33,303 nt of DNA. Source: Haloarcula marismortui ATCC 43049 (lineage in GTDB: Archaea > Halobacteriota > Halobacteria > Halobacteriales > Haloarculaceae). The translations under genes were made by a program, and so were the position numbers. Below, one piece after another: positions 9,488 through 29,430 of this stretch. The DNA lies in contig NC_006389.1 in the NCBI RefSeq assembly GCF_000011085.1, positions 1 to 33,303 of the forward strand, read 5' to 3'. The notes under the pieces are model-generated. The model was not told the DNA's origin and ran no database searches. It worked only from the letters and a program-made list of their open reading frames with translations. Position 1 is the stretch's first letter. Every line of letters starts with the position of its first letter.

Positions 9488-10015
9488 TACTGGTTCCGGA
9501 TTTGTAACGGAAAGGAACCGCCGGACGTCAACACACATGCGCTGTGGTCGTACATACTTACCAGGCTTGTCTCGCTCTGGGTACCGCCTGTTCCGTCACC
9601 TAGACAGGCTAGCCTATCGAAGCGATGACGCCTGCGTGTCCCCATGACGGCGTCCTTCTTCGAGACGGAGTGGCCTGACGTGTTCATCGCGCCCTCGATG
9701 TTCAGCGTGCTCTCCACGTGGCTCGATGTCCCTTGTACGCAAGATGTGGACTTCGATTCGTGTATCGTCACGTGGGCTCAATGCACATGACTGTGTGCGA
9801 GTGTGGGACTCGTCGACGGCGCTCTCGATATACCCTATATATCAGATTTTCTGTATAGTTCAACACCCCTCTACGCGGGTAGTCGGCGTACGGGCTTCGC
9901 TGCGAGCTCGTGGTCACTCGTCCCCCTTGTGACCTCACTTTCTTCGCTACCTCATGGGGGGTGTGCCCACTATTAATTGCGGTACGGTGCTGAATATGGT
10001 TATGATATCCTAAGA
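9488..10015. other. Stretch without a supported gene
   Basis: Short ORFs on both strands overlap each other and none has recognisable content. The segment contains GC-rich pieces (for example around 9600-9780) that look like decayed coding or element sequence, but I can name no source. It ends with the AT-rich start of the iteron array. Confidence 0.4.
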
Positions 10016-10238
10016 TTAGGACACTTATTAGGACAGGGTGTGTGATAATTAGGACAGTATTTAGGACAGGGGTAGGGTAATTTTACAGCAGGTGTTAGGA
10101 CAGGGTATTATAATATTATGACAGTGTTAGGACAGGGGTGTGGTAGGATTAGGACAAGTATTAGGACAGGGTGGGATAGCGTTAGGGTATCCTATTAGGA
10201 CAGGGTAAAATATAATACCCTAAGATTATAACAGGGGG
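10016..10238 (+). repeat. Array of TTAGGACAGGG iterons
   Basis: Good copies of TTAGGACAGGG or near variants start at 10016, 10028, 10049, 10061, 10095, 10127, 10149, 10161 and 10195, with weaker ones at 10116, 10181 and 10226. All are in the same orientation. Start-to-start distances are about 11-12, 21-22 or 31-34 bases, that is one, two or three helical turns, so the sites face one side of the DNA. The first lies in the palindrome CCTAAGATTAGG, and CCCTAAGATTAT recurs at the end. The TATA-like AAAATATAAT near 10207-10216 sits inside the array, 32 bases or more before the ATG at 10248. The array is thus either an operator, a partition site or a replication iteron cluster bound by the downstream protein. 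Confidence 0.85.
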
Positions 10239-10247
10239 AGTAAGAAG

Positions 10248-10985
10248 ATGGCTGAGAGTGCAGAGCCCGAGTTAAGCATCGAAGATATCGAGTTTCTAAC
10301 TATCGTCAGAGATGTCTCTGACAACCCGGACGAGTATGACGGAACGGAGCTTGGAGAAGCGCCTGCCACGGTGACTGTTATCACGGACAACACATCGCTA
10401 TCGAAGTCCCAGGTGAAGTATCGACTCAACTCAGAGAGTGATGCTGGTAACTCTCGTGGGTTCACTGAAGACCAACTGGGCTACATCGAGAGCTACGGTG
10501 CATCGATGACTGAGAAGGGGTGGGGTCCACGGTCGTGCGAGATCACTGAGAAGGGGCGAGAAGCAGTTGATGGGGTTACGGAAAATTCCACCCTATCGTT
10601 GTCCACATCGGAGGGGGGTAGTCCAGCTGGGGGGTCGACGGAACGTATCGAGGAACTAGCGGAGGATATTGAGCGACTGGACAACCAGTTGGCTGCGATG
10701 GGTACGCGGTTGACTGAGGCGACTGAAGCAATTGAGGAATTCAACGAAGCCGAGTTTGGTGCGGTTGATGACGAAATAGCACACAAATTAGAGGCAGCTC
10801 TGAACGCGATGATTACGTACAACAATATCTTCGAGTACGTGCTTGGTGCTGATGTACGGCCATTCCACCCGGACGAAGATGGAAAGATCGATGCTGAGAT
10901 GGTAGCAGAAGGACGTGAGCAAATCGTTGCAGCGATAAACGCGACATCAGAATCGGACGCAGCGGAGGTACTCAGACGGAAGTGA
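10248..10985 (+). CDS. Winged-helix and coiled-coil protein, probable iteron binder
   Basis: 245 residues. Residues about 10-108 form a winged-helix-type DNA-binding region (IEDIEFLTIVRDV, SLSKSQVKYRLN, CEITEKGREAV, the last a common wHTH end). A low-complexity linker (about 110-130) leads to a heptad-like coiled coil (about 131-168: IEELAEDIERLDNQLAAM onward). A C-terminal helical region (about 175-245) may be an oligomerisation domain. The gene begins ten bases after a dense iteron array, so it most likely binds it and controls itself. The architecture (HTH, coiled coil, helical tail) suits a segregation or copy-control protein. The family name is not recognised. Confidence 0.7.
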   Translation: MAESAEPELSIEDIEFLTIVRDVSDNPDEYDGTELGEAPATVTVITDNTSLSKSQVKYRLNSESDAGNSRGFTEDQLGYIESYGASMTEKGWGPRSCEITEKGREAVDGVTENSTLSLSTSEGGSPAGGSTERIEELAEDIERLDNQLAAMGTRLTEATEAIEEFNEAEFGAVDDEIAHKLEAALNAMITYNNIFEYVLGADVRPFHPDEDGKIDAEMVAEGREQIVAAINATSESDAAEVLRRK

Positions 10986-11678: not shown

Positions 11679-12016
11679 GCGCTACCCTCCCGATTATCGA
11701 CCATCTCTAGGGTCTGCGCAAGACTGTCGCGCATCCCGCTCAAGACCTCGCGCCCGTCGTCGGTGACCGAATACGTCTCCCGTCGCTGGGTTGCCTCCGA
11801 AGACTCAACCAACCCCGCCGACTCCAGATCTGCAAGCGAGCGCCGGACATGGCGGTCACTCACGTCAAGACCCTCCTGTGCGGCCTGTGCGATCAGGCCA
11901 CCCCAGGCGTCGCCGTCGTAATTCGCGACCAACAGCAGGCACGTCTGTGCCGTTGGCGTGAGGTTCTGATACGCCGCCCAGTCCGGCTGGTCGCTGGCAT
12001 CGCTGTCGGCTGTCAT
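11675..12016 (-). CDS. Winged-helix protein in the NTPase operon
   Basis: 113 residues from the ATG at 12016 (MTADSDASDQPDW). The frame is open further up, but this start overlaps the preceding stop by four bases. Residues about 15-90 are a winged helix: LTPTAQTCLLLVANYDGDAW, GLDVSDRHVRRSLADLESAG, LVESSEATQRRETYSVTDDG. The tail is an amphipathic helix (VLSGMRDSLAQTLEMVDN). It is probably the regulator of this operon or of related genes. Its place in the middle of a set of membrane proteins is unusual. Confidence 0.75.
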   Translation of the reverse strand: MTADSDASDQPDWAAYQNLTPTAQTCLLLVANYDGDAWGGLIAQAAQEGLDVSDRHVRRSLADLESAGLVESSEATQRRETYSVTDDGREVLSGMRDSLAQTLEMVDNREGSA

Positions 12017-12276
12017 CGGCTCACCGCCGTTGTGAGCGTGGTCTGTGTTGGTACTGCCAGTGACCGCTCGCCATCGAACAGCCACAGTCGCTCGATAGCA
12101 CTGATTGGGAGCCACTGTTCGACGGTGATCGCCTCGACCCAGCAGCCACCAAGCACCGACATGACGACCGCGACCAGTGCTCGCAGTGTCGCCCGGATCG
12201 CGCCGACGCCAGATGCGAGTGGCACCACCAATATTGCCCGCCCAGCGCGAGCCAGTGAGCGCACATCACTGGCCAT
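12013..12276 (-). CDS. Small membrane protein
   Basis: 87 residues from ATG 12276, chosen because GGAGGT lies six bases upstream and TGATG couples it to the preceding gene. The longer in-frame start at 12366 is less likely. Hydrophobic segments lie at about 14-26 and 32-52 (RALVAVVMSVLGGCWVEAI), with a basic N-terminus (DVRSLARAGR). No family is recognised. It is the third gene of the overlapping operon. Confidence 0.65.
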   Translation of the reverse strand: MASDVRSLARAGRAILVVPLASGVGAIRATLRALVAVVMSVLGGCWVEAITVEQWLPISAIERLWLFDGERSLAVPTQTTLTTAVSR

Positions 12277-12479
12277 CAGTTCCCACCTCCAACAGCGTTC
12301 AGGGGGGTCCCCCCTTCCGTTCCTGTTCCTGATACGCGCGCGTACCCAGCGGACATTTTGGTCCACTCAGGCCGATTGGTGCCGCTCGGCCCGCCAGCCG
12401 GGTCGCCGTCGACGGCTGTCATGAACGTAAAAGGGCGTTCGGTGTCGGTCTCCACCAGTCGCTTCGCTGGGTCACTCAT
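12276..12479 (-). CDS. 67-residue soluble protein following the NTPase
   Basis: The product starts MSDPAKRLVETDTERPFTFM and ends in a Gly- and Thr-rich tail. The ATG lies eight bases inside the end of the NTPase gene and the stop overlaps the next start (TGATG), so translation coupling supports it. No membrane segment or known motif is seen. The flexible composition suggests an adaptor or a structural peptide; that is inference. Confidence 0.55.
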   Translation of the reverse strand: MSDPAKRLVETDTERPFTFMTAVDGDPAGGPSGTNRPEWTKMSAGYARVSGTGTEGGTPLNAVGGGN

Positions 12480-14019
12480 CGGCCTCGACCTCCGTCGTCG
12501 TGCCGGGCCCAGTTCGTCTCGGAATGCGTGCCGCAACGATCTCTGCGTTCGCGTCTGGCTTGAACATGATATCGTAGTGGGTCTGTGTCGTTTTGATCGG
12601 GTTCTCGGGGAACTCGGCGTCGGGATACGGGCTCGATAGCACCTCCAGTGGCTCGGGTTTCTCACCGGAGATGTCGATAATCCCGCGACCAGGCGCGAGC
12701 ACGCGCAGTTCGTGCACGGCGCCGTCGGCTGCGCGGTACTCCTTGAGGATGGTCGGCTGGCCCTCATCGTCAGTCGCCACCTGGAGGTCCTCTACGATCA
12801 TACCGCCATCATCGCTCGTCGGGACATCAACGGCTTCCGGGATCCCGAGCCGGAGCTGGAACTCAGGCGTATCGTGTGGGTAGCCCAGATCTGAGAACTG
12901 AAACTCCGAAAACCGGTTGGCCGTGTAGCACAGTCCAAACCCCTTTGGCCGCTTCGAGAGGAGGTCTTGGTCTTGCTCGATATCGCGGAATGGCTTCGGT
13001 GCTTCAGCCTTGGTCGTCCGGTTGCCACGATCGTGGTTCGAAAGTTCGACCCAGAAGTCGAACTCCTTGAGCCAGTGATTGTGGACGTCCTCTTCGTGAT
13101 GGCCGTAGCCGACCAGCGATAGTCCGGCCGACCGCATCTCCTTCGCGATGTCGGCCATGATCTGGACACACTGGTGAGTCCAGTGGCCGGACTCGCCACC
13201 CGGCGCTGACTCCGGGGCCAGCATCCCGAACTCGTCAATATGGGCGGTCATCCAGTTACGCTCGCCATCGCCGTCGACGCGAACTCCGTCGAAGGTCCGT
13301 GCTGCAAGGAAGCCAAACCACCAGTGTGAGGCTGGCGTGGGGTTTGGCTCGTTCTTGGGGATGAACTCCGGCTGTTGGACCGTCGCATCTGCCGTCGACA
13401 GTGCTTCAACACAGCCCCGGAAGTACGGGTCCGGGAACACGACGTTGTAGGTACCTTTCGGATGGTCCTGCAGTCGTGCAACCAGTTCGTGGACATCCGA
13501 GTAATACCGTACGTCTCGGCAGAGTTCGTCGGGATCTGGATCGTCGCGGTCGACGGTTTCCATCCAGCGGCCGTCAACCTCGACGCCGCTGGGGAGCCAC
13601 AGCGTTGTCCAGTCAGCTAGCCGCCGCCAGTCAGAGCTCTTCTGGCGGCCGTTCCTGACGATGCGCTCGTCGTTGTGTTCCATCTGGTACGTGGCAAACT
13701 GGTCGGCAGCTGTGGATTTGCCTGAGCCCTTCGGCGCTTCGACCATCGTCAGTGATGCACCCGGTGAGTTCACCGTCGACGGGCCATCGGCGGAGTTCTC
13801 GATATGCACGAGAAAGTCCGGGTATACGCCTGACAGTGCCGCGCCCTCGCGTGGGTAGAACGCTTCCGGGTCGAACGCCGGGATATCGAACCGGTTTCGA
13901 ATTTCCTCAGCGTCGGTCGGCCACTTTCCGTGCGGGTCCGCGCCGTGGATGATCTGTGCGCCCTGTATCGTCTTCTCTGTAAACCCGTCCTGTTCGGATT
14001 TCGGGAGGTTCTGAGACAT
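12472..14019 (-). CDS. P-loop NTPase, HerA/FtsK or packaging-ATPase-like
   Basis: 515 residues. Walker A is APKGSGKST (95-103). The Walker B candidate is AHIDEFGML (about 259-267), with the Asp-Glu pair typical of ATP hydrolysis. A following strand, SAGLSLVGYGHHEED (about 297-311), fits the sensor strand of FtsK/HerA/VirB4-type pumps. These ATPases move DNA or protein across membranes or into capsids. Pleolipoviruses and related haloarchaeal elements carry an NTPase of this size, and the downstream small membrane proteins fit that theme, but no spike or large structural protein is present here. It is the first gene of a seven-gene overlapping operon. The exact family assignment is tentative. 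Confidence 0.65.
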   Translation of the reverse strand: MSQNLPKSEQDGFTEKTIQGAQIIHGADPHGKWPTDAEEIRNRFDIPAFDPEAFYPREGAALSGVYPDFLVHIENSADGPSTVNSPGASLTMVEAPKGSGKSTAADQFATYQMEHNDERIVRNGRQKSSDWRRLADWTTLWLPSGVEVDGRWMETVDRDDPDPDELCRDVRYYSDVHELVARLQDHPKGTYNVVFPDPYFRGCVEALSTADATVQQPEFIPKNEPNPTPASHWWFGFLAARTFDGVRVDGDGERNWMTAHIDEFGMLAPESAPGGESGHWTHQCVQIMADIAKEMRSAGLSLVGYGHHEEDVHNHWLKEFDFWVELSNHDRGNRTTKAEAPKPFRDIEQDQDLLSKRPKGFGLCYTANRFSEFQFSDLGYPHDTPEFQLRLGIPEAVDVPTSDDGGMIVEDLQVATDDEGQPTILKEYRAADGAVHELRVLAPGRGIIDISGEKPEPLEVLSSPYPDAEFPENPIKTTQTHYDIMFKPDANAEIVAARIPRRTGPGTTTEVEADE

Positions 14020-14549
14020 ACGTTGTTTACTCCAGTTAGGTGGTCAATTCCGTCTCTGTGCGTTGTCGCCGAAGCCAGCGTTGCGAGGGTGCTCATCGTG
14101 AGAGCCAATACTGTCGTGACCGCCCGTCTCGTCGGCTCCGGTAGCGCCACCGGCCAATCCGTGGCCAGCCGCTTCGAGCGCGTTCACGGCTCAGTCTGGC
14201 TGCCTGTAGCTGCAGAAAGAACACCACTACGCTCGTCGGATGCACTGAGTCTACACCTCGTGCCGCCCTCACACAGGTCAATGCCAGTCTCGGCCACCGC
14301 CTCCGGTCAGTTGCTCCTGTTAACTGGAATGGATGCTCTCGTGTGAGTAGGGCGCCACAGTCAGACTGCGGTCATCCTACGAACACGAAACCGGTGGCAG
14401 ACCACGGACAAATATGGCTGGATTGGTACAGTCTTCTGTCACTCTCTGTATGGTCCTGAAGCAGTCTGGTAAGAGATTGTAAGAGTGAGACACTGGACTG
14501 TAGTGAACAGCGCCGATGCCCTTTTCTCAGCCACTGCTAATCCGTGGGT
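14020..14549. other. Intergenic stretch before the NTPase operon
   Basis: About 530 bases between the divergent NTPase gene and the plus-strand gene at 14550. It must carry both promoters. The half next to the NTPase is GC-rich and has open frames on both strands without recognisable protein. The half next to 14550 is AT-richer (14390-14520). I can support no gene in it. Confidence 0.45.
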
Positions 14550-14936
14550 ATGGCCAATTCAGTAATGCTAGGGCGAAGCGTGGTCCAGCGAGGAAGTGTC
14601 AGCCTGTATCTGAGTATTGACCAGGGCTGGCAGCAGGCCGCCGGCTTGGACGTCGACGATACATGCCGACTGGAGATCGAGGAGGTTGGTGACGCGTCGC
14701 TGACGGTGGCGCTATTCATCGATAAAGACTACGGGACAGTGGCAGACCCACCGGGGCAGTTCGACATCGAGCCAGTGGACATCCAGACCGATCTTCAGTG
14801 GTGTCTGCCCGCCGATATGCGCCACGAGTTCGGCATCTCCGAGGAGTTCACATACAGTGCCGAGTACCACGGCGACGGCGAGATCCACTACGAGCTCACG
14901 TCGCCGACCGTTCGCGACGAGCGACTGCTTGCCTGA
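14550..14936 (+). CDS. Protein with two AbrB/SpoVT-like swapped-hairpin repeats
   Basis: 128 residues from ATG 14550; a GTG at 14544 would add two. Two segments match the pattern of AbrB-type transcription factors, a beta hairpin with a short helix and a Gly-x-x turn: about 10-50 (VQRGSVSLYLSIDQGWQQAA, then GLDVDDTCRLEIEEV), and about 85-120 (LQWCLPADMRHEFGISEEF onward). A tandem pair could form one swapped-hairpin barrel as a monomer. It is likely a DNA-binding regulator. The match is by eye and moderate. The gene stands alone. Confidence 0.45.
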   Translation: MANSVMLGRSVVQRGSVSLYLSIDQGWQQAAGLDVDDTCRLEIEEVGDASLTVALFIDKDYGTVADPPGQFDIEPVDIQTDLQWCLPADMRHEFGISEEFTYSAEYHGDGEIHYELTSPTVRDERLLA

Positions 14937-15043
14937 ACTGGAGTGGCGGTTGCAGTAGGTGTACCCGTGACGGCGGGGCACGTTTCTGTTGAGTGGCCTG
15001 AGACAGTGGCTAAACGCTTATATCCGAGGATAGGCAATTTTTG

Positions 15044-15078
15044 GGTGGAAGGAACACTGTCACACGCTCCTTCCATCC
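15044..15078. promoter_or_regulatory. Inverted repeat in the leader of the zinc-ribbon gene
   Basis: Arms GGTGGAAGGA and TCCTTCCATCC are separated by 14 bases. They lie between a TATA-like element (CTTATATC, about 15017-15024) and the ATG at 15086, so they fall around the transcription start or within the leader. They could be an operator or an RNA hairpin close to the start codon. Confidence 0.4.
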
Positions 15079-15085
15079 CCTTTCC

Positions 15086-15238
15086 ATGTCTGATGACACG
15101 CAGCGTCTCGGCCGGTGCCCAGACTGTGGCGAGCGTATCACAACTCCGTGGCTGCTGGTTGAATACGAGAAAGACGATGGCACGGAGGGCATCTGGGCGG
15201 AGTGTCCGACGTGTGAAGACGTCGTTGCGCCGGAGTAG
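15086..15238 (+). CDS. 50-residue zinc-ribbon protein
   Basis: Product MSDDTQRLGR followed by C11-x2-C14, a beta segment (PWLLVEYEKDDGTEGIWAE) and C40-x2-C43. The four Cys make a compact zinc ribbon, as in many tiny haloarchaeal proteins of unknown role. The start is the ATG at 15086, 60 bases after a TATA-like element; an in-frame ATG at 15041 lies within the inverted repeat and is less likely. It faces the similar zinc-ribbon gene at 15504-15656 tail to tail. Confidence 0.7.
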   Translation: MSDDTQRLGRCPDCGERITTPWLLVEYEKDDGTEGIWAECPTCEDVVAPE

Positions 15239-17536: not shown

Positions 17537-18466
17537 ATGACCGATGCGTTCACTGAGGCGCTTGACGAAACGGAGGGTGCGCAAGCCGCCTACGGGAAAC
17601 AACTCGGGTTTGTTGAACAGCGAACTCCGTTCGCTGCGGAGTCGTTACCTGACACAAGTATCGCCGTTAACGTCAATCAAGACTTACTCAAGGAAGTAGC
17701 CAGCCACATTATCAATCGGGCAGGCCACGTCTCGGTAATTGACAAACGTGGAGCTGGCAAAACCCATTTTCGAGAACTTGTCTACGACGCGCTTCGGGAC
17801 GGGCCTCGAAGCGAGGAATTCGCCATCGCGAGAATCAAAGAAGTCGAGTCAATCACAACGCGACGTTTCTACACTCGACTCTTGGACGAACTCCAACGTT
17901 ACGAATATCTCGATATCCCAGAGTCGTACCCGCACGCGACAGACGAAGTCCGATCCGTCGTCGAAGATGTTGCCGGCCAGTTGGAAAATCAAAATCGCTG
18001 TGGCATCATCCAAGTGGATCAGCTCGAAGATGCCGCTCGTCGAAAGAGCACGTTCGAGCAGCTGCTGGCAGGCTTACAGAGTGTCGGTGACCTTGGTGAG
18101 TCTGAACCAGTGTTCTTGCTGTTCCTATTTGGAACGCCTACCGCTGGAGATCGTATCGATGAGCTTCGGGAAACGCTGTCCTCCAGACTAGTCGCGAAAC
18201 ATCGGTCGCTGGAGCGCTTTGAGTTCGCAGAGACTGACGAACTGATCAGCCGGTGGCTAGCCTGGGCTCGGGACGAAGAGTTCACTGAGGGCTATCCAGC
18301 TGACCCATTCAGTGCCGGTGCGATTCGGAAAGTCGTAGACCGATCCGACGGCACACCCCGAGATGTCCGACAGCAATGCTACCACGGCTTTCGTGGTGGA
18401 GCAGAGCAGTATGCCGATACCGGAAAGGTCCGCATCACCGAAGAGACGTTCGAAAGCTACGTTTAA
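17537..18466 (+). CDS. AAA+ ATPase, Orc/Cdc6- or TniB-like, of a plasmid gene pair
   Basis: 309 residues. Walker A is DKRGAGKTHF (69-78). The Walker B strand is GIIQVDQLED (about 156-165), with VDQ in place of the usual DE, so hydrolysis may be weak or use another residue. A sensor-1-like strand is LLFLFGTPTAGDRI. The C-terminal part (about 230-300) is a helical lid-like domain with DGTPRDVRQQCYHG, resembling the sensor-2 region of Orc/Cdc6 ATPases. There is no recognisable C-terminal winged helix, so it is shorter than real Orc1/Cdc6. It overlaps the second AT-rich repeat at its stop codon and precedes an RHH-like gene. A role in partition or replication control is inferred. Confidence 0.7.
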   Translation: MTDAFTEALDETEGAQAAYGKQLGFVEQRTPFAAESLPDTSIAVNVNQDLLKEVASHIINRAGHVSVIDKRGAGKTHFRELVYDALRDGPRSEEFAIARIKEVESITTRRFYTRLLDELQRYEYLDIPESYPHATDEVRSVVEDVAGQLENQNRCGIIQVDQLEDAARRKSTFEQLLAGLQSVGDLGESEPVFLLFLFGTPTAGDRIDELRETLSSRLVAKHRSLERFEFAETDELISRWLAWARDEEFTEGYPADPFSAGAIRKVVDRSDGTPRDVRQQCYHGFRGGAEQYADTGKVRITEETFESYV

Positions 18467-18487: not shown

Positions 18488-18793
18488 ATGGGAGACAATG
18501 CATTTGGCGACGCACTTGACGACGCTGCAGAGGAACAGACAGCAGATGAGACAGACAGCAGTGACGCGACAGAGAGGTTCATCAAGGCGATGGGTGGCGA
18601 CGGCACGAAATCGAAAACAATCGGCTTCGCTGTTAGTCCCGAAATGAAGTACTTCTACGACGAGCTTCGTGCAAGCAATGATGTTGATGTCGATCCGGGT
18701 GACGAATTCCGCGACCAGTTGGAGCGACTGGCTAACCGGCATCCAGAAGTTGCCGATAAGGCCCGTCGGAAGCTCAAAATAGATACAGAGTAA
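18488..18793 (+). CDS. RHH-like DNA-binding partner of the AAA+ ATPase
   Basis: 101 residues. An acidic N-terminal half (about 1-40, DALDDAAEEQTADETDSSD) is followed by a strand-helix-helix module (KTIGFAVSPEMKYFYDELRA, then DEFRDQLERLANRHPEVADK), the layout of ribbon-helix-helix DNA-binding proteins, with a basic tail (ARRKLKI). It follows the AAA+ gene after 21 bases occupied by the shared repeat. In bacterial par loci a small RHH protein binds centromere repeats and recruits an ATPase. The gene order ATPase, binder, repeats is the same here, although the ATPase is AAA+ and not ParA or ParM. Function is inferred. Confidence 0.65.
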   Translation: MGDNAFGDALDDAAEEQTADETDSSDATERFIKAMGGDGTKSKTIGFAVSPEMKYFYDELRASNDVDVDPGDEFRDQLERLANRHPEVADKARRKLKIDTE

Positions 18794-19288: not shown

Positions 19289-19571
19289 CACACACCAAAT
19301 TTTGAGTAAGAAGATAGAAGACTGCGGGCTATGAGGCCACATTACGGCACCTCGGTAGCTGTTCTTATTCCAAACTAGGTGTGTCTCTCTAGTCTAGTTA
19401 TTCTAGTATGTAGTGTAGCATATGTGTACAGTCCTACTAGATGGACTGAAACAGTCTTAGACGTGTCCTCCCCTGTCACACTTTATCTGTTTCTTACTCC
19501 AAACTAGGTGTGTGTGTCATACAGTTCCTTACTCAAAATCTGGTGTGACTGGGCCAAGTTTTGTGTAAGGC
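19289..19571. other. Probable replication origin with ORB-like repeats
   Basis: Repeats of the form TTCTTACTCCAAACTAGG followed by TGTGTG lie at 19362-19385, 19491-19514 and (as TCCTTACTCAAAATCTGG plus TGTGAC) 19526-19549, all forward. A reverse-oriented copy is at 19289-19312 and a shorter reverse copy at about 19554-19571. Inverted outer copies flank an AT-rich, CTAG-rich centre (about 19385-19490), the usual layout of archaeal origins: origin recognition boxes around an unwinding element, directly upstream of an orc1/cdc6 gene. The box sequence differs from the common haloarchaeal ORB, as expected when each Orc has its own boxes. An additional hairpin CAGTCC/GGACTG lies at 19429-19448. Confidence 0.85.
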
Positions 19572-19668
19572 AGAAGGCTGCTTGTTAGACGCCAGAGTGT
19601 CGCTTAGAGGGCTATTACTCATAACCCGGTCCGAAAGCTTATTTCGTGTCTACTGTTGTCTTTTGATA

Positions 19669-20877
19669 ATGGATAGTGACGATGAATCGGAAGCCGTTCA
19701 TAGCGTCTTTAATACCGTCAGTCAGGAAGGAGGAAAAATTTTTGAGCAGCGAGAGATCCTCCAGATTGACTATGTCCCCAGCGAGAATCGGATTGTCGGT
19801 CGCGACGAGCAAATTGAGAAGGTTGCTGGAGAGATTGGACCAATTGTTGTTGGTCAGCCACCGAACTCTATCATCATCTACGGAAAAACAGGGTGTGGTA
19901 AATCCCTCGTCGCAAAACACGTCTCTAAGATTGCACGAGAAGAGGCTGAAAATCGAGGCGTGAAACTTGCTACTGGATATGTCAACTGCCAGCAGGCAAA
20001 GGGTAACTCTGACGCTCTAAGTAAGTACGGGCGCGCTATCAATCCGCCAGAAAGTGGGGTAAAATTCCCAACCCGAGGAATTTCTGAAAATGAGTATTTT
20101 GAGCGAGTCTGGTCAGTGCTCAACGAGTTTTATGATGCTGCAATCATTGTTCTGGATGAAGTTGACAAACTCAACAACGATGATCTGCTGATGGCGCTTT
20201 CTCGAGCAGGAGAGGACGGAAGCGTTGATGTCCCGATCGGAGTGATTGCGGTATCGAATAAAATCAATTATCGGGACAAAATGAGCGAACGAACAAAGAG
20301 TTCGTTCGGGCACAATGAGTTCATATTTGAACCATACGATGCAGATCAGATTCGAGAGATTTTGCAAAACCGGACTGATGCCTTCGCAGATGGAGTTCTT
20401 GATGACGGTGTAATTCCTCGTGCTGCGGCACTGAGCGCTAAGGAACACGGGGACGCGCGAAAGGCCATGCGTCTTCTTCGGTATGCTGGCGATCAGGCAA
20501 ACAAAGAGAATGCTGAGCGAGTGAAAGAGTCACACCTTACTGATGCACGCGCTTCAGCAGAGGTTGACCGACTTCTTGAACTCATATCAGGACTGCCACC
20601 CCATAGCAAGCACGTCTTACTCGCGCTCGCGAACCTCACTAAGAATCACCCTGACCGAGAATGGTTCCGGACTGTGCGAGTCCGTGAAATATATCTTGAA
20701 GTGTGCGACCGGAGCGGGGCCGACCCTCTTTCGGCTGAGCGAACCCGACAATTACTCAACGAACTCTGCTTCTTAGAAGTCGCAGGGAGTCGGCGAGGGA
20801 CTGGTGAGGGCAAAGGACACTACAGCCAATATACTCTCCTGTGGGACGCAGATATCGTTCTTACCCTCGGTAACTGA
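19669..20877 (+). CDS. cdc6: Orc1/Cdc6 replication initiator
   Basis: 402 residues from ATG 19669. The upstream GCTTATTT at about 19637-19644 lies the right distance for a leaderless transcript, so the longer open frame from 19561 is not used. Walker A is YGKTGCGKSL (71-80) and Walker B is VLDEVDKL (161-168). Sensor 1 follows in GVIAVSNKINYRD and the sensor-2 region is HGDARKAMRLLRYAG. The C-terminal ~110 residues are a winged-helix domain (LLELISGLPPHSKHVLLALA onward). This is the family that binds origin recognition boxes and loads MCM. It lies beside the repeat cluster and should be the plasmid initiator. Nothing is missing compared with the family. Confidence 0.93.
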   Translation: MDSDDESEAVHSVFNTVSQEGGKIFEQREILQIDYVPSENRIVGRDEQIEKVAGEIGPIVVGQPPNSIIIYGKTGCGKSLVAKHVSKIAREEAENRGVKLATGYVNCQQAKGNSDALSKYGRAINPPESGVKFPTRGISENEYFERVWSVLNEFYDAAIIVLDEVDKLNNDDLLMALSRAGEDGSVDVPIGVIAVSNKINYRDKMSERTKSSFGHNEFIFEPYDADQIREILQNRTDAFADGVLDDGVIPRAAALSAKEHGDARKAMRLLRYAGDQANKENAERVKESHLTDARASAEVDRLLELISGLPPHSKHVLLALANLTKNHPDREWFRTVRVREIYLEVCDRSGADPLSAERTRQLLNELCFLEVAGSRRGTGEGKGHYSQYTLLWDADIVLTLGN

Positions 20878-21034: not shown

Positions 21035-21781
21035 ATGAGCTACAGTGATGAGGAACTCCTGACCCACATCCGAGAGCTGGCAGCAGAACTCGGTGAAACA
21101 CCCTCAGTGAATCAAATGAGTGCCGCAGAGGGACGCCCAAGCGGGAGTACATACCGGCACCGGTTTGACTCATGGAGTGACGCCGTCGAGCAGGCGGGGG
21201 TAGAACCAACCGACCAATCAGGTCCATACACCAAGACAGAACTGTTAGAACATATCCGGGCGCTTGCAACCGAGCTAGGTCGGCCACCGACATTGGAAGA
21301 TCTGAATGCGGATGACGATCGCCCGAGTTTCAAGCCATACCGTCGGGTATTCGACACGTGGAATGCCGCGCTTACCGCCGCCGGGTTTGACCCAAATCAC
21401 GCTATGTCACACACGGAGCCAGAGGGGTACTCTGACGCCGAATTGCTCACACATATTCAAGAATTAGCCGAAGAGTTAGGGCGACCGCCGACGCAAGATG
21501 AAATGCATCAGGCCGATGACCGGCCCAGCGAAAGTACGTATAAGCGACGATTCGAGTCCTGGACCAGCGCAATTGAGGAGGCGGGTTTTGACTCGGGTCG
21601 AAAAACTAGCTCATACTCTGAAGCCGAATTACTGGATCTGCTTCGGGACTTAGCTACCGAACTTGGTGAAACGCCGTCAGTGCAGCAGTTGAATGCTGCC
21701 GAGGACTATCCGAGCCGAGCAGTGTACAGGAATCGATTCGGTTCGTGGAGCGCGGCGTTGGAGGCCGCTAATTTGGAGTGA
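21035..21781 (+). CDS. Protein of four homing-endonuclease-associated repeats
   Basis: 248 residues built of four units of about 55-60 residues with the pattern YS-x-x-ELL-x-HIRELA-x-ELG-x-PT, then RPS-x-S-x-Y-x-RF-x-SW, then A-x-x-AGF. The units start near residues 3, 65, 131 and 193 and are separated by short variable linkers. This is the HNH-associated (homing endonuclease-associated) repeat found beside nucleases in haloarchaea, where it is thought to bind DNA helically. No nuclease motif is present here, so the protein may be a stand-alone DNA binder. The start ATG 21035 lies 38 bases after a TATA-poor region. Neighbours give no direct clue. Confidence 0.8.
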   Translation: MSYSDEELLTHIRELAAELGETPSVNQMSAAEGRPSGSTYRHRFDSWSDAVEQAGVEPTDQSGPYTKTELLEHIRALATELGRPPTLEDLNADDDRPSFKPYRRVFDTWNAALTAAGFDPNHAMSHTEPEGYSDAELLTHIQELAEELGRPPTQDEMHQADDRPSESTYKRRFESWTSAIEEAGFDSGRKTSSYSEAELLDLLRDLATELGETPSVQQLNAAEDYPSRAVYRNRFGSWSAALEAANLE

Positions 21782-23765: not shown

Positions 23766-24896
23766 TCAGTCCGCGACAGTCCCTCCATCAGTCATCGCCG
23801 ACGGCTGCTGGCCGCCACCATAGGAGCCCAGCGTCGTCTCGCCGCTGTCAGCAAGCCTCGAGTCGCCGTCGGCGTTCGCGAAGTGTCGAATCGTCTGTGC
23901 CATGTCGGGGTGGTCGATTTCGAGTTCGGTCAGATTCAGGCGCAGCACCTGTTGTCTGTCTGGTTTGCCAGTCCCGATTCCGAAGTGCTCGGCGGCTGCT
24001 TGCATCACGTCATGCATCGTTGGTCTCGAAATCTCATCGTCGAACACCGCTTCCCGAAGTTCTCGCTCGGGGAGCGTCACGTCCTTTGAGGACGTCGCCA
24101 TTGCGCGGCGGCCGACAGTGTAGATGAGACGGCGCTTCATCTCATCAGTATCCAGCAGTTCGACCGAGCGGCGGCACTCAGCGGGCGTTTCGTCAGGGGC
24201 GATCTCTTCGGCCTGGTCGCGAGAGATCCACAGCTCCTCGTTGTGCGGGTGGCGTTCGTAGTCGAGGCGGTCGATCACGAGGTCGCGGTACTTCTCCAGC
24301 GTTGGGTCGGATGCCTTCGGTCCCTCGGCGGCGATGTTGTGGATGCTCTCGTTCAGGACCTCGTCAGTGAACGACTCGCCGACATCGTGGCAGATGGCGA
24401 TCGTCTTGCGCTGGACGCTGCTGAGACTCTTATCAGAGTCGTCATTGAGCTCGCCCAGCATGGATTCGGCGTCGTCGACGACACGGTCGAGCTTGTCTTC
24501 CACCCGGCGAGATCGGCCGCCATCGCGATAGACGTTCAATGCGCGTGCGAGGGCGACACCATAGTTGTAGTCCGTGTGCTCGTCGACATATGCGCAGAAC
24601 TCCTCTTTGAGTGGCGTCCCGACACGGATGCCGATGCGGGTCGGTTCCTGAGACGACAGATCAGATTTTATTTTTTCGCTGGCGTGGTCCGGAGAGCGGC
24701 CGGCGGCTGAGACGAGGCGGTCGACGAGCGTCTCAACGCGAGCATAGCCGTCCGCGTCAATATATTGCTCCATCGCGAGTTCGGCTTCACGGCCCAGATA
24801 GCCCTCAGCAACCCCGAATCGGGATTCGATGTGGCGACGGAACTGCTCCCACTCGTCTGCGGGAACCATCCAGTCCAGCTTGGAGGTGTCCCGCAT
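23766..24896 (-). CDS. Large RHH-like protein, last gene of the small-protein operon
   Basis: 376 residues from ATG 24896 (MRDTSKLDWMVPADEWEQFR). The frame is open upstream but runs through the hairpin cluster. Two segments resemble DNA-binding helix pairs with a preceding strand: about 8-60 (RHIESRFGVAEGYLGREAEL onward) and about 92-135 (RIGIRVGTPLKEEFCAYVDE, then YGVALARALNVYRD), the second being RHH-like. The middle and C-terminal parts are helical with winged-helix-like pieces (ERELREAVFDDEISRPTMHD). The end is Gly-rich and acidic. It may bind the adjacent hairpins as a replication or copy-control protein; no catalytic Rep motif is seen. Function is inferred from context. Confidence 0.65.
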   Translation of the reverse strand: MRDTSKLDWMVPADEWEQFRRHIESRFGVAEGYLGREAELAMEQYIDADGYARVETLVDRLVSAAGRSPDHASEKIKSDLSSQEPTRIGIRVGTPLKEEFCAYVDEHTDYNYGVALARALNVYRDGGRSRRVEDKLDRVVDDAESMLGELNDDSDKSLSSVQRKTIAICHDVGESFTDEVLNESIHNIAAEGPKASDPTLEKYRDLVIDRLDYERHPHNEELWISRDQAEEIAPDETPAECRRSVELLDTDEMKRRLIYTVGRRAMATSSKDVTLPERELREAVFDDEISRPTMHDVMQAAAEHFGIGTGKPDRQQVLRLNLTELEIDHPDMAQTIRHFANADGDSRLADSGETTLGSYGGGQQPSAMTDGGTVAD

Positions 24897-24922
24897 CAGG
24901 ATTGCACCTCCCGAAGGGCGGA

Positions 24923-25103
24923 CCCGCACCCACACACCATCTCGGTGTGTGCGGGGGGGTTCACACCCACACCACACACACCTTCTTGGTGTGTGGGTGG
25001 GGTGGGGGTGCAGACCCCCACCCCGCCTGCGGTTGCGTCTGCCGACGGACCGCAGTGCGGGTAGACGGCCTGACGGCCGCCTTCGGGGGTCCAGGGGACC
25101 CCC
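24923..25103. repeat. Cluster of GC-rich hairpins
   Basis: Perfect stems: CACACACC with GGTGTGTG at 24931-24951 (loop ATCTC) and again at 24975-24995 (loop TTCTT). GGGGTGGGGGT with ACCCCCACCCC at 24999-25024 (loop GCAG). CTGCGGT with ACCGCAG at 25027-25055. GGGGGTCC with GGACCCCC at 25085-25103 (loop AGG). The first two have the same stem and a five-base loop. The density of stems within 180 bases and their place before the 376-residue gene suggest a structured origin, an attenuator or a transcript boundary. No coding use is likely. Confidence 0.85.
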
Positions 25104-25469
25104 GGGGGACACTCCAGTCCTCCGCACAGCGAAAAAATAAAATTCTGCGTGGGGTGGTCGTTCGTGGACGGTGCTGACCGCATGTCTCTATGCGTACGCT
25201 CTCGTTCGTGATGCTCCATATCCTGTGTAGTGAGCACCCTCCGCCTCTCGACGGCGGCAGATATGGCTAAGGATACCTGCTGCTGGTGGGTAACGCTTAA
25301 GCCATTCTGCCGAGAAGAACCGGTACAGAAAGTGGGTTCGTTCCCAGCGATTCCCGTTGGCGCGGGTTCGAGCTGGGAACGCCGGTCCGTTCTCAGGCAA
25401 GTTGTGTTCTCGTAGTGTCTTCTCTGTCCTGCGACTTGCACATGCGGCGACTTAAAACCGCTAGGAGCG
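25104..25469. other. Gap between small-protein operon and hairpin cluster
   Basis: About 365 bases with overlapping short ORFs on the minus strand, for example near 25188-25400, none recognisable. It may hold a second promoter for the 376-residue gene. AT-rich AAAAAATAAAATT at 25132-25144 could serve as a TATA element or T-rich terminator on the minus strand. Confidence 0.4.
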
Positions 25470-29170: not shown

Positions 29171-29430
29171 GTAAGACCGTGCGCTGTACGGTCGAGAACC
29201 GTCAGCGCGTTCGGCGTGCCGCCCGAGCGCTGCGGGAGACCGCGCCGACCGCCGTAGTCGAGACGACGCCGCCGGTCCGCTCGGAACACGACGCTTGGAC
29301 GCTTGATGCCGTGTTGCGAGAGACCGAGGGCGTTCCGCCGGAAGTGCTCCGAGAGCTCGCGCTGGCCGGGCTGACGCTCCAGCCGACGCCCACGCAGGCT
29401 GAGCATCAACACGTCGTGGCGACGGCCTGA
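29167..29430 (+). CDS. Small helical protein with a broken paralogue at window start
   Basis: 87 residues: MSKTVRCTVENRQRVRRAAR is basic, then DAWTLDAVLRETEGVPPEVL and RELALAGLTLQPTPTQAEHQ. It is helical with a basic N-terminus, possibly nucleic-acid binding. It is coupled to the preceding gene. A decayed copy of the C-terminal part lies at 1-144. Function is unknown. Confidence 0.65.
   Translation: MSKTVRCTVENRQRVRRAARALRETAPTAVVETTPPVRSEHDAWTLDAVLRETEGVPPEVLRELALAGLTLQPTPTQAEHQHVVATA

Follow-up and report, generated by a model that had tools for sequence, protein, structure and literature searches.

The Iteron Array and the Adjoining Gene of pNG100

The sequence analyzed (the window, meaning the whole stretch of 33,303 nucleotides) is one complete contig of the nine that make up the 4,274,642-bp genome of Haloarcula marismortui ATCC 43049, and we take it to be plasmid pNG100. 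The region that contains the array and the gene described below (Table 1) is 99.8% identical to that of the resequenced plasmid pHMA33 (NZ_CP039133). The annotation of pHMA33 splits the winged-helix gene into two ORFs whose frames differ (L002:21863-22598; 140 and 95 aa), which may reflect a sequencing error or a true mutation. Plasmid pNG100 is about 33 kbp in size and carries the archaellin gene flaA2 (PMC6528647), and a single orc-associated origin was predicted on it (PMC3528665).

Table 1. Coordinates of the features of pNG100 discussed in the text.
Feature	Position	Strand	Basis and remarks
Conserved G-run / CTATTAAT stretch just 5′ of the array	9915–10000		Near-unchanged in pNYT2
Perfect palindrome TCCTAAGATTAGGA at the 5′ edge of the array	10009–10022		Sequence; direct repeat; present in pNYT2
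Iteron array, 13 same-direction sites (core TTAGGACA, full TTAGGACAGGG), 32–34-bp units	10016–10236	+	Sequence, shuffles, autocorrelation
TATA-like element AAAATATAATA of the 245-aa gene (putative promoter)	about 10207–10217	+	Read from the sequence
Gene for the 245-aa protein	10248–10985	+	ORF confirmed; winged helix about 9–108, coiled-coil helix 130–167, helical C-terminal part 175–244
P-loop ATPase gene (515 aa), convergent, downstream	12472–14019	-	85% identical in pNYT2
Orc1/Cdc6 gene	19561–20877	+	Cdc6_lid and Cdc6_C matches; known replicator side

A previous, sequence-only reading of this DNA had described about a dozen same-direction elements upstream of the 245-aa gene. Thirteen were found, all on the plus strand, of which nine had exact TTAGGACA cores and four were degenerate, and six of the sites were exact copies of TTAGGACAGGG (starting at 10028, 10061, 10095, 10127, 10161, and 10195). 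The array is beyond what shuffled sequences produced: 15 matches with up to two mismatches occurred in the window, compared to 6.5 expected (0 of 100 shuffles), and the 320-nt leader contained 11 non-overlapping near-copies of one 10-mer, compared to a maximum of six in 200 dinucleotide shuffles. Autocorrelation of the leader peaked at 33/34, 66/67, and 99/100 bp (z 13.6; 0 of 300 shuffles). The array consists of about seven units across 220 bp, each with a strong site and a weaker site 11–13 bp upstream of the strong one.

The elements were also thought to be spaced by one, two, or three helical turns. Their regularity was borne out, as a single pitch of 11.1 bp fits all the sites (vector strength 0.92, not reached in any of 2000 random placements), but the 10.5-bp pitch of B-DNA gave a vector strength of 0.09. 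The description of the array as helically phased therefore needs qualifying: the sites are evenly stepped, do not lie on one face of relaxed B-DNA and would turn slowly around the helix. Nor do the elements overlap the TATA box, as had been proposed; the TATA-like element is bracketed by the last two sites (10195–10205 and 10226–10236). A degenerate copy (CCCTAAGATTATAA) of the palindrome found at the 5′ edge of the array lies at its 3′ edge, near 10219. Bacterial promoter and terminator scans are uninformative in archaea, and an Rfam scan of the whole window yielded no match.

The gene for a winged-helix, coiled-coil protein that had been read next to the array was confirmed as an ORF, and the proposed fold is backed by an AlphaFold2 model built from an alignment of 12 sequences (mean pLDDT 70.6, about 80–90 over most of the winged helix; pTM 0.44). 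The winged helix was modeled with confidence and is followed by a helix of 38 residues; the C-terminal part, likewise helical, was modeled with moderate confidence. Its top structural matches were MarR/PadR-type winged helices, including AspA of pNOB8 (4rs8; Z 9.2, rmsd 2.7 over 82 residues) among many others; VIA-align likewise pointed to a generic MarR/PadR winged helix, and Foldseek returned nothing below E 0.04. Such a fold, as modeled, is generic and would assign no function to the protein. No family match was found in Pfam, NCBIfam, or PADLOC, and the weak matches in PHROGs were to the coiled coil only, in line with the earlier statement that no named archaeal system has this arrangement. 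Searches of PDB sequences with phmmer and profiles found only chance matches to the coiled coil.

Recurrence and Co-divergence of the Gene-Array Pair

Sequence searches of genome contigs with the 245-aa protein and a first search of viral contigs found nothing; the family was identified by profile searches of haloarchaeal genomes and by an alignment-based search of viral contigs, which found the virus-like contig L052. The suggested check for the same gene-iteron pair elsewhere thus located it in plasmid pNYT2 of H. taiwanensis and with distant homologs. The pNYT2 homolog is 92% identical to the 245-aa protein, and its array equals that of pNG100 plus exactly one extra 34-bp unit. Between these two Haloarcula plasmids, the strong sites are better conserved (62 of 66 positions) than the spacers (73 of 99; Fisher P = 0.0008), and 97 of the 101 positions just 5′ of the array (9915–10015) are identical. 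Among 392 genomes, the spelling of this array was found only in pNG100 and pNYT2.

The distant homologs are 28–34% identical to the pNG100 protein, and the regions before their genes contain arrays with spellings of their own; the periods are about 33, 40–45, or 55 bp, and two arrays are irregular. The periodicity of the eight array leaders in the first set was matched in 0–1 of 300 shuffles; the repeats of G096, G327, G147, G141, and L052 had periods of 42–45 bp and those of G351 a period of 135 bp, perhaps 3 × 45, and none of 300 shuffles matched any of these six. Five of six further leaders reached a periodicity seen in 0–1 of 300 shuffles, with periods of 42 bp (G422), 40 bp (G475), 55 bp (G494), and 40–41 bp (G452, a very strong array with z 27.8) or an irregular one (G488; 96), and the sixth, G482 (L097), was weaker (8 of 300). 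The G452 array (L114/L101), which precedes the gene of a 326-aa family member, is very long, at least about 500 bp. In a control set of 81 upstream regions, the median z was 3.7 and the 95th percentile 6.0, and the region with the highest z was that upstream of orc. Three weaker cases, G351 (z 5.9), G482 (5.0), and G494 (6.0), are near this 95th percentile.

Four family members (G121, G277, G188, and G110), all on chromosomal contigs, form one clade and have no clear array, with G277 showing a single long-spaced repeat (148 bp). This clade groups beside the array-bearing G147/G141 pair in a tree several of whose deeper forks are weakly supported, and one loss of the array is the simplest reading. 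The chromosomal member G351 retains a weak array. An element 5′ of the arrays (TATTA..GCGG by eye) is well kept within close pairs; scored across the family, it was not significant (69, compared to a shuffle mean of 66.5 and maximum of 69). Chromosomal relatives of 302–647 aa were also observed in one genus (L048-L050; G382, G328, and G153), with a shorter match in G231; their synteny with an adjoining gene, whose product is J-domain-like by eye, is conserved.

Comparison of G147 with G141 revealed that the gene for the coupling protein and the stretch 5′ of the array are each 88% identical in DNA, while the family proteins are 55% identical and the array leaders 52%, near unalignable. Because the transfer genes of this pair are so similar while its arrays are unrelated and its proteins have diverged, the protein and the array appear to change together, faster than their flanks. 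This is as expected of a self-recognition determinant, in which a protein that binds its own array is under pressure to differ from its relatives, and by itself it gives no function for the complex. Given that the pair recurs and co-diverges beside a near-identical transfer gene, the earlier proposal that the adjoining gene encodes the probable array-binding protein is well supported by sequence comparison.

Genes Associated with the Gene-Array Pair

In most relatives, clusters of conjugation (T4SS) genes were found beside the family gene, a link that the sequence-only reading did not make. At ten loci (G096, G351, G327, G147, G141, G482, G475, G494, G422, and G452), a very large gene for a TraG/TraD-type ATPase adjoins the family gene tail-to-tail, separated from it by 25 to about 770 nt. 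At three more (G121, G188, and G110), the coupling gene is 3–7 kb away, and no coupling gene was found within the stretch read for G488 and G277. Pfam matches to TraG-D_C, P-loop_TraG, and TrbL/VirB6 were found in the clusters of the relatives, and matches to VirB6/TrbL and VirB4/TraG in that of G141. No relaxase was matched among the proteins scanned. A DISARM/BREX defense operon, also considered for these clusters, was dropped after PADLOC and Pfam identified TraG/TraD-, VirB4-, and VirB6-type proteins.

No T4SS or coupling-protein genes were recognized on pNG100, where the 245-aa gene is followed by small convergent ORFs. The 515-aa ATPase encoded further downstream did not align with TraD-like proteins (hhalign); its relative in pHsi55 of H. 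sinaiiensis (68% identical) is encoded 2.1 kb from a true coupling-protein gene. The block at 11705–15238 of pNG100 is 95–98% identical to pNG200 (G000:C2), and this similarity ends at 11705, near the gene-array cassette. There pNG200 encodes an RHH and coiled-coil protein (L117:10685-11320), with ParA elsewhere on the plasmid. Other genes observed on pNG100 include those for a 453-aa protein (23766–25127, minus strand) matching PHROG 29021 of unknown function (4.9e-86), a 248-aa protein (21035–21781) built of HNH_repeat (homing endonuclease associated) units (E 1.2e-82), and a tRNA-Gly (CCC) of 91 nt (29179–29269, minus strand) predicted by ARAGORN.

Of the nine H. marismortui contigs, pNG100 was the only one on which AAA_31/ParA (PF13614) had no match; the chromosomal matches probably include MinD-like proteins, so that their number on the chromosome is not a count of partition systems. 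G096:C5 was likewise without an AAA_31/ParA match, and on pNYT2, G327:C5, and G147:C7 ParA is encoded elsewhere on the replicon. On L052, the gene and array are followed after 190 nt by ParA and a small partner gene; the remaining genes of this contig, read as ORFs by eye, resemble those of tailed viruses, and no coupling or transfer gene was seen in the 16 kb read. Orc/Cdc6 genes are present on pNG100, pNYT2, G096:C5, G327:C5, and G147:C7. Upstream of orc, pNG100 also has a second candidate maintenance pair, an AAA+ ATPase (17537–18466; 309 aa) and a small protein (18488–18793), of which the ATPase is 69–73% identical to counterparts on Natrinema, Natronosalvus, Halomarina, and Haladaptatus plasmids.

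Proposed Role and Alternatives

A partition-type role fits best among the readings considered. We give about an even chance to the proposal that an autoregulated protein assembles on a centromere-like array and keeps the element inherited. We infer that the 245-aa protein binds the array, dimerizes and represses its own gene: its coiled coil would form dimers, whose winged helices would bind the paired sites and fill the array, and the resulting large nucleoprotein complex would repress the promoter whose TATA-like box lies between the last two sites. The complex would then serve as a centromere-like body that ensures inheritance by positioning, spacing, or tethering plasmid copies, so that segregation of pNG100 could dispense with a ParA-type motor of its own. 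Where relatives have a conjugation cluster, this complex may be tied to transfer as well, as StbA of R388 links stability with conjugation. The array recurs with the gene and co-diverges with it; segregation is the least certain step of the proposal. The conservation of the array between the two Haloarcula plasmids, the lack of an AAA_31/ParA match on pNG100 and G096:C5, and a layout like that of the stbDRs of R388 and of KfrA of RA3 also count in its favor.

The conjugation clusters bear on a rather unlikely alternative, in which the array would belong to a transfer origin and the protein bound there would pass the DNA on to the adjoining coupling ATPase, much as TraM of F, an autoregulated oriT binder, contacts TraD. 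The TraG/TraD-type genes tail-to-tail with or within a few kb of the family gene, the VirB6/TrbL and VirB4/TraG matches of the G141 cluster, and the palindromic and G-run DNA that immediately precedes several arrays all favor such docking, and every transfer-type locus with a coupling gene in the stretch read has a family gene beside or near it, which also counts against segregation. Docking is in turn difficult to reconcile with pNG100, which has no recognizable T4SS genes, and with the lack of a relaxase match in the scanned proteins. Given that the pair of L052 is beside ParA, with no transfer gene seen, a maintenance setting is suggested there, and a chromosomal clade without clear arrays of which at least three of the four members keep the coupling gene suits extrachromosomal maintenance better than a transfer origin. 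Together these two observations weakly favor segregation over docking. On the simplest reading the clade is not independent evidence, being a single loss, and the closeness to ParA on L052 may be mere clustering because that ParA has its own small partner gene downstream. The retention of a weak array by the chromosomal G351 and the other candidate maintenance pair near orc on pNG100 also argue against segregation, and since ParA is encoded elsewhere on the same replicon in several relatives, the pair is not their sole candidate partition system.

The protein might instead act only as an autorepressor whose operator has multiple sites, perhaps with control of adjoining maintenance or transfer genes as well, and have no architectural role. 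The bracketed TATA-like box, the resemblance of the winged helix to MarR/PadR repressors and the existence of a wider set of haloarchaeal winged-helix, coiled-coil proteins are consistent with this. We consider it unlikely, given that some seven units over 220 bp, and the longer 40-bp-period array of G452, go far beyond what repression needs, that the spacing stays regular although the arrays differ in period and in number of units, and that the protein and its array diverge jointly and at a faster rate than the flanks. The sequence-only reading had also raised a second replication-control locus. Iterons bound by a winged-helix initiator are the layout of bacterial Rep/iteron plasmids, and at a GC of 0.42 the leader is rich in AT by haloarchaeal standards, but a second origin or copy-number control is very unlikely: Orc/Cdc6 genes are present on pNG100 and on the other replicons examined in detail, the 245-aa protein has no Rep-family match and some family members are chromosomal.

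If the segregation reading holds more widely, the family might, tentatively and with the chances rather against it, represent a new class of haloarchaeal inheritance module found on conjugative plasmids, on integrated elements and on one or more virus-like elements, in which one winged-helix, coiled-coil protein and a fast-changing array, free in spelling and spaced near multiples of 11 bp (about 33, 40–45, and 55), would mark each element with a segregation or incompatibility address of its own, with no NTPase dedicated to the task. The arrays would then offer a way to define incompatibility groups of haloarchaeal plasmids, and with their changing spelling and constant regularity they are a model for the joint change of a DNA-binding protein and its sites. 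A 2016 review described the segregation of DNA in archaea as a “black box,” and the examples that it works through, SegAB and AspA-ParBA, are crenarchaeal (PMC5120986). The present comparison adds a protein family that has no name, together with the cis-sites on which it probably acts, from several families of haloarchaea; no description of this winged-helix, coiled-coil family was found in the openly licensed literature. The H. marismortui strain without pNG100 that already exists provides a simple test bed (PMC6528647).

Comparison with Known Systems

On pNG100, a repeated array precedes the gene of a predicted autoregulator, which would resemble the centromere of ParABS systems if the protein binds it, but no ParA/AAA_31 NTPase was matched on the replicon; the pair of L052 has ParA downstream. 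AspA of the Sulfolobus plasmid pNOB8 is a centromere-binding winged helix whose site is upstream of its own gene (PMC5120986). It resembles the pNG100 protein in being an archaeal plasmid protein, with a winged helix that is one of the many MarR/PadR-type fold matches, and differs in that it binds one 23-bp palindrome and then spreads, lacks a counterpart of the C-terminal half of the pNG100 protein and is encoded in an operon with ParB and ParA. TraM of F is autoregulated and oligomeric, binds multiple sites at oriT beside its own gene and has the coupling protein as its partner; its DNA-binding fold is different from the winged helix of pNG100. A coupling gene, as expected of a conjugative relaxosome accessory protein, is beside or near the family gene in 13 relatives, unlike pNG100, where neither it nor any other T4SS gene or relaxase was found. 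The 245-aa protein also had no match to iteron Rep initiators in Pfam or PHROGs.

Autoregulated, iteron-binding maintenance proteins are already known in bacteria. The stbDRs of R388 are 9-bp repeats with an 11-bp pitch around the stb promoter and are needed for stability, and StbA is one protein that acts in both stability and conjugation, with no motor protein needed for stability (PMC3098194). With StbA/stbDRs and TraK of RP4, as with the probable binding protein of pNG100, repeats stepped by about 11 bp surround the promoter from which the protein is expressed, and the location beside transfer genes is shared by the relatives. StbA comes with StbB and StbC, however, whereas pNG100 has no recognized T4SS and its protein had no match to the StbA/TraK family in Pfam or NCBIfam. 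KfrA of the IncU plasmid RA3 is an autoregulator with an N-terminal HTH and a long helical tail that binds five 9-bp direct repeats over its promoter, and its DNA binding is needed for stable maintenance (PMC7783346). It is larger, at 355 aa, with a far longer tail, and acts together with IncC/KorB and KfrC; its Pfam domain did not match the 245-aa protein at E ≤ 0.1.

Par of the Staphylococcus plasmid pSK1 is a single-protein partition system composed of a wHTH, a coiled coil and a C-terminal region (PMC11500499). Its likeness to the pNG100 system, that is, a winged helix and coiled coil, upstream repeats and no NTPase at the locus, concerns operation and not ancestry. Par has a MerR-type wHTH and DUF536, whereas MarR/PadR-like folds rank first for the pNG100 protein and DUF536 of Pfam was not matched at E ≤ 0.1. 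Par (8csh) was not among the structural matches listed, an absence that does not speak against a relationship. According to Chan et al. in 2022, Par reportedly has 245 residues and seven centromere repeats. Thus, while sequence and domain comparisons would make it a member of none of these systems, that of pNG100 appears to work like StbA/stbDR, KfrA, and Par of pSK1.
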